Below, piece after piece: positions 6,938-58,062 of a DNA stretch of 64,000 bases. The DNA comes from Chloroflexota bacterium. Its GTDB lineage: Bacteria; Chloroflexota; Limnocylindria; P2-11E. The notes under the pieces are model-generated. The model made no database searches. It saw only the letters and a list, made by a program, of their open reading frames with translations, and was not told the DNA's origin. A program made the translations under genes and the position numbers. The stretch spans positions 1 through 64,000 of the forward strand of contig JACQAT010000005.1 of assembly GCA_016194865.1 (NCBI GenBank). The letters are read 5' to 3'. Numbering within the stretch: position 1 is the stretch's first letter; the number at the start of each line of letters is the position of its first letter.

Positions 6938-7992
6938 CGCACGACGACGTCGCGCTGGTACGCGGCCTCGTCGAGATCCCGAGCCTCTCGCGGCACGAGG
7001 GCGAGGCGGTCGAGTGGCTCGTGGGCCGGATGCGCGAGCGCGGCTTCCGCGCCACGGTCGACGATGCCGGCAACGCCGTCGGCGAGATCGGCGACGGGCC
7101 GCGGCACGTCGTCCTGCTCGGCCACATCGACACCGTGCCGGGCGAGATCCCCGTCGCGATCGAGGATGACGAGCTCGTCGGCCGTGGGGCGGTGGACGCG
7201 AAGGGCCCGCTCGCCGCGTTCGTCGCCGCGGCGACCGAGCGCGTGCCCGGCCTGCGCGTCACCGTCGTCGGCGCGGTCGAGGAGGAGTCGCCCACGAGCG
7301 CCGGCGCGCGTCACCGCGCGACGCTTCCCTCACCGGACTGGTGTGTCATCGGGGAGCCATCCGGGTGGGACGGCATCACGATCGCCTACAAGGGCCGGCT
7401 GGTGCTCCGCGTGGCGCTCGAGCGGAGCGCCCGCCACGGGGCCGCGCCCGGTCCCACCTGCAGCGAGGAGGCGCTCCTCGTATGGGAGCGCATCCGCGGC
7501 GCGGCGTTCGCGCTGACGGAGAGCAAGGACGGATTCGAGCGCCTCGACACGCGTCTGGAGGGGATGACGAGCGGCGGCGACGGGCTGCGCGAGCGCGCCG
7601 AGCTGCGCGTCGGCTTCCGCGTGCCGCCCGGCCTCGCCATCGCGACGCTGGAGGATCTCGCGCGCGCCGCGGTCGCCGAGCATGTGGGGAGCCGGGCCAC
7701 GGTCGAGCGCGTCGCGGCGGAAGAGCCGGCGCGCACGAGCCGCGCGACGCCGCTGGCGGGCGCGTTCGCGAAGGCCATCACGAGCGCGGGCGCGACCCCA
7801 CGCTTCACGCAGAAGAGCGGGACGAGCGACATGAACATCCTCGCGCCGGCCTGGGGCTGTCCGATGGTCGCCTACGGGCCCGGCGACTCGGCATACGACC
7901 ACACGCCCGTGGAGCGTCTCGCATTGGCCGATTACGCGCGCAGCATCGTGGTGCTGAAAGACGTGCTGCGGAGGGCCTCGGCGGTACCATGA
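6934..7992 (+). CDS. lysK: LysW-lysine/ornithine hydrolase (LysK, M20 family)
   Basis: [15 protein letters not shown]...[29 protein letters not shown]; last gene of the lys operon. Confidence 0.87.
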
Positions 7993-8019
7993 CGCCGCCC
8001 TGAGGGGCGGGGAGGGCCG

Positions 8020-10029
8020 ATGCTCGCGAGGCGGCAGCAGCGTCAGCGCGTCGTGATCGCGGGGATGACCCTGGTGGCGATCGTGCTGGCCGCGCTCGCC
8101 ATTTCCGCCGACATCCTCGGGCCCAGCCTGCAGAATGCCGTCTACGACTTCACCATCACCAGCTTCCCGGCGAAGGTGAAGAACCAGGTCACCATCGTCG
8201 CCATCGACGACAAGACGATCGATGCCTACAAGCAATATCCGCTGCCACGGAACGTCTACGCCGACCTCCTGAGCGCGCTGCGCACGCCCGGGCGAACGCC
8301 CACCGTCGTCGCCTTCGACGTGGGCTTCTACGAGCCGTCCGGCAACAACGCGGCCGACGCGGCGCTCGCCGCCGCGATCAAGGCCTCGGGGAACGTCGTC
8401 CTCGCGATGCAGGGCCCCGCCGGCGCCGGCACGCGGACCGAGGGCGCGATGCGCTTCTCGGCGCTGCAGCTGCCGATCTCCGCCTTCCGTGACGGTGCCG
8501 CGGCGCTCGGCGCGGTCAACGTGAACGCCGACGAGGACGGCCGCGTCCGCGACGCGCAGATGATCATCCAGGGACCGCAGGGCGAGCGCTACTACGCGCT
8601 GCCGCTCGTGGCGGTCGCACGTCACCTCGCGTCGCTCAAGCAGTCCACCGGCGACGAGCACGGCATCCGTGTCGAGGCCGGCCGCATGATCCTGCCGGGC
8701 CGGCCACCGCAGGTCGCCGACCGCGTCATGCCGCTCGACCGCGGCGGCGGGATGCCCGTCTACTACGCGGCGCCGCCCGCGACGCCGCTGCGTGACCAGA
8801 AGGGTTTCTGCGCTGTTCCGGGGGAGTACTGCGTCGTGTCGATGACCGATGTGATCAGCGGGGCTGTGCCGGCGGCGCTCCTCTCGAACCGCCTCGTCTT
8901 CGTCGGAGCGCATTCCGTTTCGGCGGTGCCTGACGACTACCCGGTGCCGAACAGCGCCGGCAGCAAGATGTACGGGGTCGAGATCTGGGCCAACACCGCA
9001 CAGTCCATCCTGACCGACCGCTTCCCGGTGCGCCATCAGGGATTCCTCACCACGCTGCTCGGCGCGGCCGTGCTGACGCTCGCCGGCATCCTGCTGGTGA
9101 CCCGCTTCCGGCTCCTCGGATTCTTCATCGGCCTCGGGCTCCTCGCCGTGTACGCGGTGCTTTCGATCGCCGTCTTCGCGGCGCAGACGTCCGGCGACCT
9201 CGGGACCGGGCCGGTCGAGGTGCCCTCCATCGGGTATGTCGTGCCGGCGGTCTTCTGGTGGGTCATCGCGCTCGGCTACGTCCTCGTCGAGGAGCAGGTG
9301 ACGCTCCAGCGCACCCAATCGACCTTCGGCCGCTTCGTCACGCCCGCGATCGCGCGCACGATCATGGAGCGAGAGGAAGCGGGCAGCCTCGCCCTCGGTG
9401 GCGAGGCGAAGCAGGTGACGGTGCTGTTCGGCGACATCCGTGGCTTCACCACGATGTCCGAGGGCATGTCGCCGGGACAGCTGCTCGATACGCTGAACCG
9501 CTATTTCGATGGGATGGTCGACGTGGTCAACAAGTACAACGGGACCGTGAACAAGTACAACGGCGACAACATCATGGTCCTGTGGGGCGCGCCGCTCGAG
9601 GTGCCGGATCACGCGCGAAACGCCGTGGAGTGCGCGCTCGAGATCCAGCGCTTCATCGTGACCGAACGCGCGAAGGGTGGCCCCGACGTCTCCTTCGGCT
9701 TCGGCATCAATACCGGGCCGGTGGTGGCGGGCTTCCTCGGCGCCAAGGGCCGCATGGAGTACACGGTCATCGGCGATACCGCGAACGTCGCCTCACGACT
9801 CACCTCGGCGGACATCGCGCGCCGCGACCAGGTCGCGGTCAGTGCCGCGACGCTTGCCGAGCTCGGCGACGACGTCACGACGGTGGACCTCGGAGAGATC
9901 GCCGTCAAGGGCCGCGCCGGCGCGGTGCGCTGCTATCAGGTGGATCGCCTCGGCGCGCTCGCGAGCCCGAATCCCGCGCCGCCGCCGGAGCGTCCCATCG
10001 GCGCCGCGGTCGTGGCAGGATTCCACTGA
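8020..10029 (+). CDS. CHASE2 sensor and class III adenylate/guanylate cyclase
   Basis: N-terminal CHASE2-like region, TM helices, cyclase domain VTVLFGDIRGFTTMSEGMSPGQLLDTLNRYFDGMVDVVNKYNGT...GDTANVASRL. Confidence 0.88.
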   Translation: MLARRQQRQRVVIAGMTLVAIVLAALAISADILGPSLQNAVYDFTITSFPAKVKNQVTIVAIDDKTIDAYKQYPLPRNVYADLLSALRTPGRTPTVVAFDVGFYEPSGNNAADAALAAAIKASGNVVLAMQGPAGAGTRTEGAMRFSALQLPISAFRDGAAALGAVNVNADEDGRVRDAQMIIQGPQGERYYALPLVAVARHLASLKQSTGDEHGIRVEAGRMILPGRPPQVADRVMPLDRGGGMPVYYAAPPATPLRDQKGFCAVPGEYCVVSMTDVISGAVPAALLSNRLVFVGAHSVSAVPDDYPVPNSAGSKMYGVEIWANTAQSILTDRFPVRHQGFLTTLLGAAVLTLAGILLVTRFRLLGFFIGLGLLAVYAVLSIAVFAAQTSGDLGTGPVEVPSIGYVVPAVFWWVIALGYVLVEEQVTLQRTQSTFGRFVTPAIARTIMEREEAGSLALGGEAKQVTVLFGDIRGFTTMSEGMSPGQLLDTLNRYFDGMVDVVNKYNGTVNKYNGDNIMVLWGAPLEVPDHARNAVECALEIQRFIVTERAKGGPDVSFGFGINTGPVVAGFLGAKGRMEYTVIGDTANVASRLTSADIARRDQVAVSAATLAELGDDVTTVDLGEIAVKGRAGAVRCYQVDRLGALASPNPAPPPERPIGAAVVAGFH

Positions 10030-55758: not shown

Positions 55759-56649
55759 CTAGTGGCGGGGTGACGTCGGTCCTTCCCGGAGGAGGTCTAC
55801 GACCGCGTCCGACATCTGTTGGCCCGCGAGATCCTCGTAGTGGGAGAACGCGGGCGACGGATTGACCTCGAAGCAGTAAGGGGCGCCGTCGGCCCGGAAC
55901 TTCAGGTCGAGCCCCGCGATCATCAGGCCGAGCTCAGCCGCCAGATGTCGACAGGCGTCCGCAACAGTGCTGTCAAGCTCATGTGGCGCGTAGCGCACGT
56001 GCGAACCGTAGCGCTGCGCATATCGATAGTCGATCGTATCGGTCTCGATCGCGGTCGCGAAGACGTCGCGACCGATGACGTGGACGCGCACATTCAACCC
56101 CTCGACGAATTCTTGGAACTGCACCGGCGACCATCGAACTCGGCTCAGATCCGCGTCTCTCGTCAGTTCGGTCACGATCGAGCGCACCGAGCTGATCGAC
56201 TTGAACACCACCCGTGCGTGCTCACGAGCGAAGGCACGCACGCGGTCGGGGTCATTCGTTATCAGCGTGTCCGGCACGAGAAATCCCGCACGCGCGATCA
56301 CCTGCAGCTGCCCAGGTTTCGAGTAGTTGGTTGCCATGAGCGAAGGTCGGTTCACGACCAGAGCACCGGTGACTTCGAGCCAATCGGTGATCCGATCCAC
56401 GAACCGTTGCGCGGCATGGTCCGTTGGTACCGGACGCTCGAGCCGCGCGTACGCGGCAGAGCGCTCCCCCAGCGGGAACGCAGCACCATCCAGCACCAGA
56501 CACGCGTGGTCTGGTCCGTCGCCCTCCAGCCAGGCCCGGTCCGCAGGCTCATCCTGATCCGCGAAGACGAAGGGAACAGATGCATCCTTGAGTGCCCGCG
56601 CGGTAGCCCGTACAGGGCCATCGCGGCCGCTGCCGAAGAGGAATATCAC
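55759..56649 (-). CDS. RimK/MvdD-type ATP-grasp ligase (candidate RiPP-modifying enzyme)
   Basis: ARVVFKSISSVRS...VQFQEFVEGLNVRVHVIGRDVFATAIETDTIDYR...GLDLKFRADGAPYCFEVNPSPAFSHYEDLAGQQMSDAVVDLL; GTG start in a GTGA overlap with the upstream gene. Confidence 0.82.
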   Translation of the reverse strand: MIFLFGSGRDGPVRATARALKDASVPFVFADQDEPADRAWLEGDGPDHACLVLDGAAFPLGERSAAYARLERPVPTDHAAQRFVDRITDWLEVTGALVVNRPSLMATNYSKPGQLQVIARAGFLVPDTLITNDPDRVRAFAREHARVVFKSISSVRSIVTELTRDADLSRVRWSPVQFQEFVEGLNVRVHVIGRDVFATAIETDTIDYRYAQRYGSHVRYAPHELDSTVADACRHLAAELGLMIAGLDLKFRADGAPYCFEVNPSPAFSHYEDLAGQQMSDAVVDLLREGPTSPRH

Positions 56650-57347
56650 GATGCCGTTCGGGCGAGCTCGCGAAGGCGGGCCAGGAGCGCGTCTCCGCCA
56701 AGACGAAGGTCGGCGTCCAGCGACGCATCGGTGAATGTCCATCCCTCGGTACCGGCCACGAGTCGGATCTCGACGAGTTCGGTCTGCGTACGTTGGCAGA
56801 GCGCCCGCGCAGCGTCTCGAAGCTCGGCGGGCAACTCGACTCCCACGGACTCGCCGTAGAGCAGCAGCGCGTACATCGTGGGCCGTTCCTCGGTGACCTC
56901 GATCCCGGCGTCCCATGGGTCGCGCGTCTCGAAGCCTGCACGCCGCGCGAGCGTTCGCCACTGCGCCGGCGAGCGATACGGGCCGCGCGGCCCGGAGCCG
57001 ACAGGTCGGTTGAGCACGGGCCCTGGCAGGCAGTTCATCCAGCTCGCGAAGAGCGCGAGCGATTCCTCGTACGCATACTCGCGGTCGTCCTCAGTCGCAA
57101 GCGGCTGTGAGGGTGGGTGGTGGCGGTTCAGCACCAGACCGACGGTCTGCTCGGTGAGGTTCCGCCCGTCGGCGAGCTCGATGGTGAACGCATTCCGTTC
57201 GCCCGCGACCGTGTGCTCGATACGCAGAGCGCTTGCGAGCTCCCCTGAGCCCACGAGGTCGATGTCCGTGCCCATGGCTCGAAGCCGAAGATAGGCCCAC
57301 AGAGCGCTCTCGTCTCGACTGTCGCAGATCACCAGAGCGCGGCGCAT
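56646..57347 (-). CDS. Uncharacterised partner protein (pre-ATP-grasp-like, no evident catalytic core)
   Basis: MRRALVICDSRDESALWAYLRLRAMG...VGLVLNRHHPPSQ...YAYEESLALFASWMNCLPGPVLNRPVG...TDASLDADLRLGGDALLARLRELA. Confidence 0.7.
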   Translation of the reverse strand: MRRALVICDSRDESALWAYLRLRAMGTDIDLVGSGELASALRIEHTVAGERNAFTIELADGRNLTEQTVGLVLNRHHPPSQPLATEDDREYAYEESLALFASWMNCLPGPVLNRPVGSGPRGPYRSPAQWRTLARRAGFETRDPWDAGIEVTEERPTMYALLLYGESVGVELPAELRDAARALCQRTQTELVEIRLVAGTEGWTFTDASLDADLRLGGDALLARLRELARTAS

Positions 57348-57369
57348 CCCAGAACCGCGACGCTTGCTA

Positions 57370-58062
57370 CTACGCGCTCGTGTCCCGCGCGTCCTTCCGC
57401 AGCCGGGCCGACTCATCGCGATCCCGCAGCTCGGCCGCCACCGCGAGCAATGCGGCGCTGCTCGGATCCGCAGGCGTAGGTCCGACCCGCGGCCGCAACG
57501 TCGCGTCTATGAAGTGACGCAATTCGCCGCGCGCACTCGGCGTGTCGCCATCCTTGCCCTTGTCGCTGCTGTCCTTCGTGCTGTCCTTCGTCTTATGCGG
57601 GCCCTCGGTCGGGTCCTTGTCGGCGGAGTCCTTGTCGTCCTTGCTCGCCTTCGTGCGAAGCGCGCCTTGTTCACGCGGTCCTTTTTCGTCTGGCTTATCG
57701 CCAGGCTTGTCACGGGACTTGTCGTCAGGTTTATCCCAACTGTCGAGCTTGTCGCCCGGTTTCTCTTTGTCCTTGTCAGTCTTATCCCCGGGCTTCTCGA
57801 ATGGCTTCTCCGGCCTCGCGCTCGCGAACGGGAGCTCCGCCGCCTCACGCTCCTTGGGCTTGTCTCCGTCCTTCGTCTTGTGCGGACCCTCGCTCGGGTC
57901 CTTTGGGCCTGGATCCGTGATCGGCCGTGGAGGCTGTTCTCGCGCTTTCTCCGATACCTTGTCTCCGTCCTTCGTCTTGGGCGGACTTTCCCGCGGATCC
58001 TTGGGTGGATCCTCACGGCCCTTCTCGTGCGGCACCTTGGCAAACCGAGCCTGGCTGGCCAT
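57370..58062 (-). CDS. Repeat-rich hydrophilic protein, candidate multi-core RiPP precursor
   Basis: 230 aa, K/D/E/P-rich; three DPxExPxKTKDxxK repeats and four (E/D)KP(G/D)DK units; AAAGGA upstream of the ATG; ends 22 nt before the partner gene. Confidence 0.7.
   Translation of the reverse strand: MASQARFAKVPHEKGREDPPKDPRESPPKTKDGDKVSEKAREQPPRPITDPGPKDPSEGPHKTKDGDKPKEREAAELPFASARPEKPFEKPGDKTDKDKEKPGDKLDSWDKPDDKSRDKPGDKPDEKGPREQGALRTKASKDDKDSADKDPTEGPHKTKDSTKDSSDKGKDGDTPSARGELRHFIDATLRPRVGPTPADPSSAALLAVAAELRDRDESARLRKDARDTSA

Follow-up and report, generated by a model that had tools for sequence, protein, structure and literature searches.

A candidate graspetide-type operon with a degenerate ATP-grasp partner and a motif-bearing repeat protein in a Chloroflexota genome

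What would an ATP-grasp ligase be doing beside a long, charged repeat protein and a third gene that matches no known family? This question is raised by positions 55759-58062 of the window, by which we mean the whole 64,000-nucleotide (nt) stretch analyzed here from a Chloroflexota bacterium (contig JACQAT010000005.1). Three minus-strand open reading frames (ORFs), referred to as genes A, B, and C, make up the entire operon, in which 22 nt separate A from B, and B and C overlap by 4 nt (GTGA). An initial annotation, made from the DNA letters, had described this packing, a charged repeat protein of 230 amino acids (aa), and a 296-aa ATP-grasp bearing FEVNPSPAFSHYE, and had read the trio as a candidate graspetide operon. 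The ORF coordinates, the composition and repeats of A, and the presence of FEVNPSPAFSHYE in C all agree with that description. We assign a probability of roughly 0.68 to the operon being a graspetide-type protein-modification system, in which C, working with B, would staple Lys to Asp or Glu side chains in a motif-docked A. This reading is carried by the homology and completeness of C, the deadness of B, the co-occurrence of the three parts, and a conserved motif, all of which were seen in sequences, alignments, and predicted structures.

The ligase and its degenerate partner

Against Pfam, C matched RimK (1.7e-07). A search with graspetide family models, as the initial annotation had proposed, matched C to the NCBIfam model TIGR04187 (SAV_5884 graspetide maturases) at 8e-35, yet the score of 120.5 lies under the curated cut-off of 350. 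Scores for MvdD (66.8 against 475) and MvdC (57.3 against 425) were likewise under their cut-offs, and all three family labels were dropped for this reason. By sequence, the best solved relative of C is PsnB, the plesiocin ligase (2e-22). The AlphaFold model of C, with a predicted local distance difference test (pLDDT) score of 87, had a template modeling (TM) score of 0.81 to PsnB and a fold nearest to PsnB, PruB, and MdnC; its top 31 structures were graspetide synthetases, with RimK ranking behind them at a TM of about 0.7. In an alignment of eight ligases from the clade described below, the SKP, Lys150, DYRYA, and ExNP residues were invariant. The DYR of C is related to a 'DFR' motif that has been described as critical for activity (PMC13097080). 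With the family, the intact ATP site, and the DxR motif of graspetide synthetases all present, C is, by its conserved residues, a catalytically complete graspetide-type ATP-grasp ligase.

The RimK match bears on an alternative in which C and B would work as a ligase of RimK-like or peptide-tagging type, either adding amino acids to A or attaching A to another molecule or to the cell surface, with no internal staples. RimK-type folds do match C, and the enzyme carriers and long Lys-rich tails found among the relatives would suit intermolecular attachment. We consider this account unlikely, given that graspetide synthetases outscore RimK for C in both sequence and fold, the DxR motif is invariant among the eight aligned clade ligases, and a radical S-adenosylmethionine (SAM) enzyme of the type that matures ribosomally synthesized and post-translationally modified peptides (RiPPs) adjoins one of the loci.

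No match to B was found in Pfam or NCBIfam. A profile comparison nonetheless aligned B to C with a probability of 96.9% (E 1.9e-10, 238 columns), and the alignment has the ATP-binding centre deleted from B and the catalytic Lys and ExN residues missing. The top 26 Foldseek matches to the model of B were all graspetide synthetases, for a model that is itself of low confidence (pLDDT 60). On this comparison, B derives from the family of C and is a truncated form that has lost catalytic capacity. The initial annotation had overlooked this homology, along with the docking-like FIDATLRPRVG of A. At four related loci (L026, L027, L130, and L131), the partner is near full length yet degenerate, so the partners form a series from a full-length pseudo-enzyme to the truncated form. 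No homologue of B was found on plasmids. We infer that B takes the place of one half of a ligase dimer and acts as a partner subunit.

The repeat protein and a motif shared by eleven loci

Gene A, which had no match in Pfam or NCBIfam, encodes 34 Lys, 35 Asp, 18 Glu, and 30 Pro, with a net charge of 0. The 160 residues from aa 13 to 172 hold 32 Lys, 28 Asp, and 15 Glu, and within this core Asp or Glu is enriched three residues after Lys (z 4.8). There are three 15-aa units of the form KDPxExPxKTKDxxK, whose corresponding 48-nt DNA repeats are 77-85% identical, as well as four short [DE]KP..[DE]K units. A fits the pattern of a graspetide precursor, being encoded next to the ligase and having donor residues (Lys/Ser/Thr) and acceptor residues (Asp/Glu) that recur along its length.

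Searching with C led to L002 (Acidobacteria), where the trio is present. Searches with a profile of B across 396 Acidobacteriota and 400 Chloroflexota genomes led to L016 (counted as L016/L028), L024, L025, L026, and L027, while searches with a profile of C led to L074 and then to L129, L130, and L131. Together with the window, the trio was found at 11 loci in the phyla Chloroflexota and Acidobacteriota. Clade ligases scored 320-506 bits, with the next best at 192 and below, and the eleven ligases form a single clade (support 99/96). One branch (95/89) has the A-B-C order, a truncated B, and a C-terminal motif; the other (97/85) has an N-terminal motif, a near-full-length partner, and a motif protein downstream of C or fused to it. 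The initial annotation had named related ATP-grasps without an adjacent repeat protein as a finding that would count against it. Instead, a pseudo-ATP-grasp and a motif protein, adjacent or fused, were observed at all 11 loci, and at 10 of them the ligase adjoins a repeat protein or peptide rich in Lys, Asp, and Glu.

The proteins in the position of A are otherwise unrelated to each other. They comprise a trypsin-like protease (L002, matching Nal1_C and S7 weakly), an M43 metalloprotease (L016, 6.6e-14), a protein with an Ig-like domain (L024), a putative metalloprotease (L025, HELVE, judged by eye), and a kelch/GlxA-like protein (L074), while those of the window and L129 (the latter about 465 aa long) consist of repeats only. 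Lys, Asp, and Glu together make up 53-67% of the best 60 residues in the first six loci. The candidate precursors span about 140 to 630 aa, mostly exceed 150 aa, and are often enzymes, and in most relatives a large protein tail takes the place of a peptide as the proposed substrate. At L028, a RiPP-maturation radical SAM enzyme (TIGR03975, 9e-189) lies directly after C, and a tail-less, divergent M43 metalloprotease paralogue (7935-8825) lies about 600 bases from the tailed copy, which indicates that the tail is a separate addition to the protease family.

What the 11 loci share is the motif F[IV]-x4-RP-x-[VL], which occurs with exact spacing at every one and provides a conserved candidate recognition sequence. 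Its copies are FIDATLRPRV (window), FITPEERPEL, FIQQSQRPDV, FITADERPPV, FIRPEERPPV, FIKPEERPEV, FIGIELRPDL, FIGGEDRPNV, FVGGEERPDV, FIPASERPTL, and FISSALRPPV. The KTKD repeat, whose co-occurrence with such ligases the initial annotation had proposed to check, is peculiar to the window locus. The published graspetide leader motif, Phhx(1,2)h, was not seen in A. Because the motif was first noticed after seven loci, the agreement of those seven is post hoc, and a shuffle product of 6e-14, also post hoc, was not relied on. Four later loci (L074, L129, L130, and L131) were picked by ligase score alone, and all four carried the motif. A scan of eight genomes returned 44 pattern sites compared to 43 in a reversed control, which is chance level, but a site was found beside the ligase in 8/8 genomes. 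In the genome of the window (1.38 Mb, 66%-complete), the copy in A is the sole site. With pattern sites occurring about once per megabase, a given ligase would have one <=5 kb away by chance with a probability of about 0.005. No Lys/Asp/Glu-rich stretch was observed near the other pattern sites in the eight genomes, with 13 of the 44 sites left unread. Across 19 outgroup neighbourhoods, no comparable motif was found in genes beside the ligase; at one of them (L088), an unrelated gene about 2 kb off matches the pattern, within chance. We infer that the motif is a docking tag for the ligase system.

In a second alternative, A would be an ordinary linker or stress protein, charged and either disordered or helical; C would act on an unlinked peptide, with A as a scaffold or simply a neighbour. 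Low-complexity Lys/Glu/Asp sequence arises readily, and some of the tails could be charged single helices. At L027 (300-1500), moreover, a PqqD-family protein (7e-18), of a peptide-binding type, bears the motif at its N-terminus; the motif may therefore mark a delivery protein instead of a substrate. Set against this, the motif recurs across carriers that are otherwise unrelated, and does so only next to ligases of this clade; the Pro-rich repeats of several loci (the window and L016 among them) are unfit for a helix; and at L131 (1454-2935) a single frame of 494 codons joins the ligase to the motif protein. Since several tails are Pro-rich, we rejected the purely helical charged linker as an explanation for all loci, and we regard the alternative as a whole as quite improbable. 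The PqqD-family gene at L027 is followed by a short KxxxE/D-rich peptide gene, MKYEQPLLLEHGALRDVTGTGVKYLKEKLEKDIKDVKEKLESDKVLF, with a lasso-like leader, and then by an HPr-kinase-like gene; a crossing of lasso-type recognition with graspetide chemistry is possible there.

Expected chemistry, origin, and loci outside the clade

Graspetide ligases couple Asp or Glu to Ser, Thr, or Lys (PMC13097080). The repeat tails of L002, L026, and L074 contain zero Ser or Thr, which leaves Lys as the remaining usual donor and makes Lys-to-Asp/Glu amides the simplest common product, with an amide likelier than an ester. In the proposed mechanism, C would be complexed with its dead homologue B, probably replacing the homodimer of characterized graspetide ligases, and the complex would bind A near its C-terminus, at the FI-x4-RP motif. 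ATP-driven activation of Asp and Glu side chains within the repeats would then allow these to be joined to Lys side chains, producing a chain of isopeptide (lactam) staples. That C modifies A seems highly probable, and that the product consists mainly of internal Lys-Asp/Glu lactams appears reasonably likely. Of the initial reading, the ligase type and A as the likely substrate stood.

Several observations weigh against this stapling scheme. A single Lys-to-Asp/Glu spacing common to all tails was sought and not found: the strongest spacing is +3 in the window, +4 in L027, and +5 in L002 and L026, with several in L016 and L025, so ring size is not predicted. L131 has the motif and no clear Lys/Asp/Glu repeats, and L027 has the motif on its PqqD-like protein with the Lys/Glu/Asp peptide encoded separately. 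The window copy of the motif is among the more divergent, with no E before RP, and the structural comparison for B depends on the low-confidence model.

A stapled tail may serve stiffening, protease resistance, surface attachment, or protease inhibition. A broader and more tentative proposal, for which we judge the odds to be slightly below even, is portable stapling, in which the ligase/pseudo-ligase pair would read a tag at either end of unrelated proteins and tie their Lys/Asp/Glu tails by many isopeptide bonds. The 'peptidases' of such clusters would then themselves be substrates, and this would be the reason that precursors of these clusters were never found. If the chemistry is true, the system would provide an encoded route to many covalent staples in the tail of a folded protein via a short transplantable tag.

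The origin of the operon was evaluated through codon texture and relatedness. At third codon positions, the GC fraction is 0.74-0.79 in the three genes compared to 0.88-0.97 in seven nearby genes, in line with the less GC-biased texture noted by the initial annotation, and this lower value points to a recent horizontal gain of the operon, which we consider likely. No relatives of B or C were found across 100 kindred genomes searched, and the nearest ligases to C in the ligase tree are from Acidobacteriota. The same observations, together with the long branch of C and the divergent window motif, could be read as signs of a decayed or non-functional acquired fragment. With all three frames intact, an operon-like overlap, and the catalytic residues of C retained, this is very improbable.

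Other ligases were recovered outside the clade. Haloarchaeal ligases (L003/L004, 35-37% identity) adjoin an M50-type peptidase without B or a repeat protein, and two plasmid matches (L007 and L012) have neighbours unlike A or B; these were set aside. On a Burkholderia stagnalis plasmid (L008, 3133-5642), an M43 metalloprotease has a tail with Thr/Asp repeats, STDVHPTIPTVDLHVTIATAD, and is directly followed by a graspetide-type ligase, without B, making it a candidate protease-borne precursor outside the motif clade. An Acidobacteriota outgroup locus (L075, 4977-6104) encodes a 375-aa DPK-repeat protein with about 50 Lys and 50 Asp, adjoining a graspetide-type ligase and the RiPP-maturation radical SAM enzyme (rSAM_ocin_1) that follows this ligase; the repeat protein looks like a very large Lys/Asp precursor. 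Two other Acidobacteriota loci (L081, 4920-5375; L082, 3575-3943) have small proteins beside ligases with repeated TETxT...SD cores that resemble plesiocin-type precursors. Finally, a plasmid of the rickettsial endosymbiont Megaera polyxenophila (L009, 4713-7908) carries a graspetide-type ligase accompanied by a pair of genes whose annotation is isopenicillin N synthase-like dioxygenase.

Table 1. Positions of the operon genes and their proposed elements within the window
Feature	Coordinates	Strand	Basis
Gene A, 230-aa disordered Lys/Asp/Glu/Pro-rich repeat protein, proposed precursor	57370..58062	-	ORF; clade-specific motif present
Proposed cross-linked core of A, the repeat region rich in Lys/Asp/Glu (aa 13-172)	57547..58026	-	Composition, spacing enrichment
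A repeat copy 1, KDPRESPPKTKDGDK (aa 21-35)	57958..58002	-	Repeat search
A repeat copy 2, KDPSEGPHKTKDGDK (aa 54-68)	57859..57903	-	Repeat search
A repeat copy 3, KDPTEGPHKTKDSTK (aa 149-163)	57574..57618	-	Repeat search
FIDATLRPRVG of A (aa 184-194), proposed C-terminal docking motif	57481..57513	-	Motif in 11/11 clade loci
Gene B, 233-aa partner, a truncated and catalytically dead ATP-grasp	56646..57347	-	Profile-profile match to C; Foldseek
Gene C, 296-aa ATP-grasp ligase of graspetide type, GTG start	55759..56649	-	Pfam, NCBIfam, PsnB sequence and fold
DYRYA of C (residues 207-211), includes DxR motif of graspetide synthetases	56017..56031	-	Invariant in eight aligned clade ligases

Comparison with known systems

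The plesiocin system (PsnA/PsnB) offers the closest solved ligase and also has repeated cores. Plesiocin is ester-forming, with small Thr/Glu cores, and is not known to involve a pseudo-ligase. The microviridin clusters resemble the window operon in having two ATP-grasp proteins, MvdC and MvdD. Both of these are active, whereas B is without the ATP-binding centre and the ExN residues.

In its passages on branch 8, the survey of Makarova et al. 2022 (PMC8939145) describes loci that combine a truncated inactive ATP-grasp with peptidases unrelated to each other, and it regards these peptidases as separate processing enzymes; precursors were not predictable there, in a screen that took proteins of at most 150 aa. 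B fits this description, as do the proteases that L002 and L016 have in their A proteins, and the difference from that account is that the peptidases here themselves bear the repeat tail and motif. The window operon has the truncated inactive ATP-grasp, and Pfam detected no peptidase in it, while L002 and L016 each have one. Since a truncated ATP-grasp partner was published in 2022, for one branch, this kind of locus is not wholly undescribed. Neither the motif nor tail-bearing proteases as substrates were found described in the literature searched, with preprints and most subscription journals outside its scope. The motif supplies candidate precursors for graspetide-type loci with a truncated ATP-grasp and odd peptidases, and it does so as a one-line search rule. 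These candidates are mostly above the 150-aa limit and often enzymes, which is why small-protein screens missed them. Carter et al. 2026 report graspetide groups with long repeat precursors, as well as a group with diverse neighbouring proteases, which were interpreted as maturation or resistance enzymes.

In corallotide (group 15, CorA/CorB/CorC), the precursor is a 22-kDa protein whose KxxxD repeats carry Lys-Asp isopeptides (PMC13097080); it shares a protein-sized precursor, several Lys...Asp repeats, and a partner-aided ligase with our proposal. Its partner is a 2-oxoglutarate (2OG) oxygenase, with added hydroxylation, and it is restricted to Corallococcus (PMC13097080), whereas the partner here is a dead ATP-grasp. 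The 2OG oxygenase and beta-lactamase partners of group 15 are absent from the window operon, which consists of A, B, and C, with B having no Pfam match. The rosaritide ligase MirB requires a co-encoded partner, MirC, and co-purifies with it, although MirC is a SurA-like chaperone unrelated to B (PMC13097080). The fuscimiditide ligase ThfB still works with its leader moved to the C-terminus, a case of a recognition sequence that functions at either end of the substrate (PMC13003496). That C-terminal leader was engineered, while the motif described here is naturally C-terminal in one branch and N-terminal in the other, and would be, if the chemistry is true, a natural case of a recognition sequence working at either end. 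As far as we have checked, the ligase class and the truncated partner were already known, and the novelty lies in the substrate family, in the two-ended motif, and in the interpretation in terms of protein tails.
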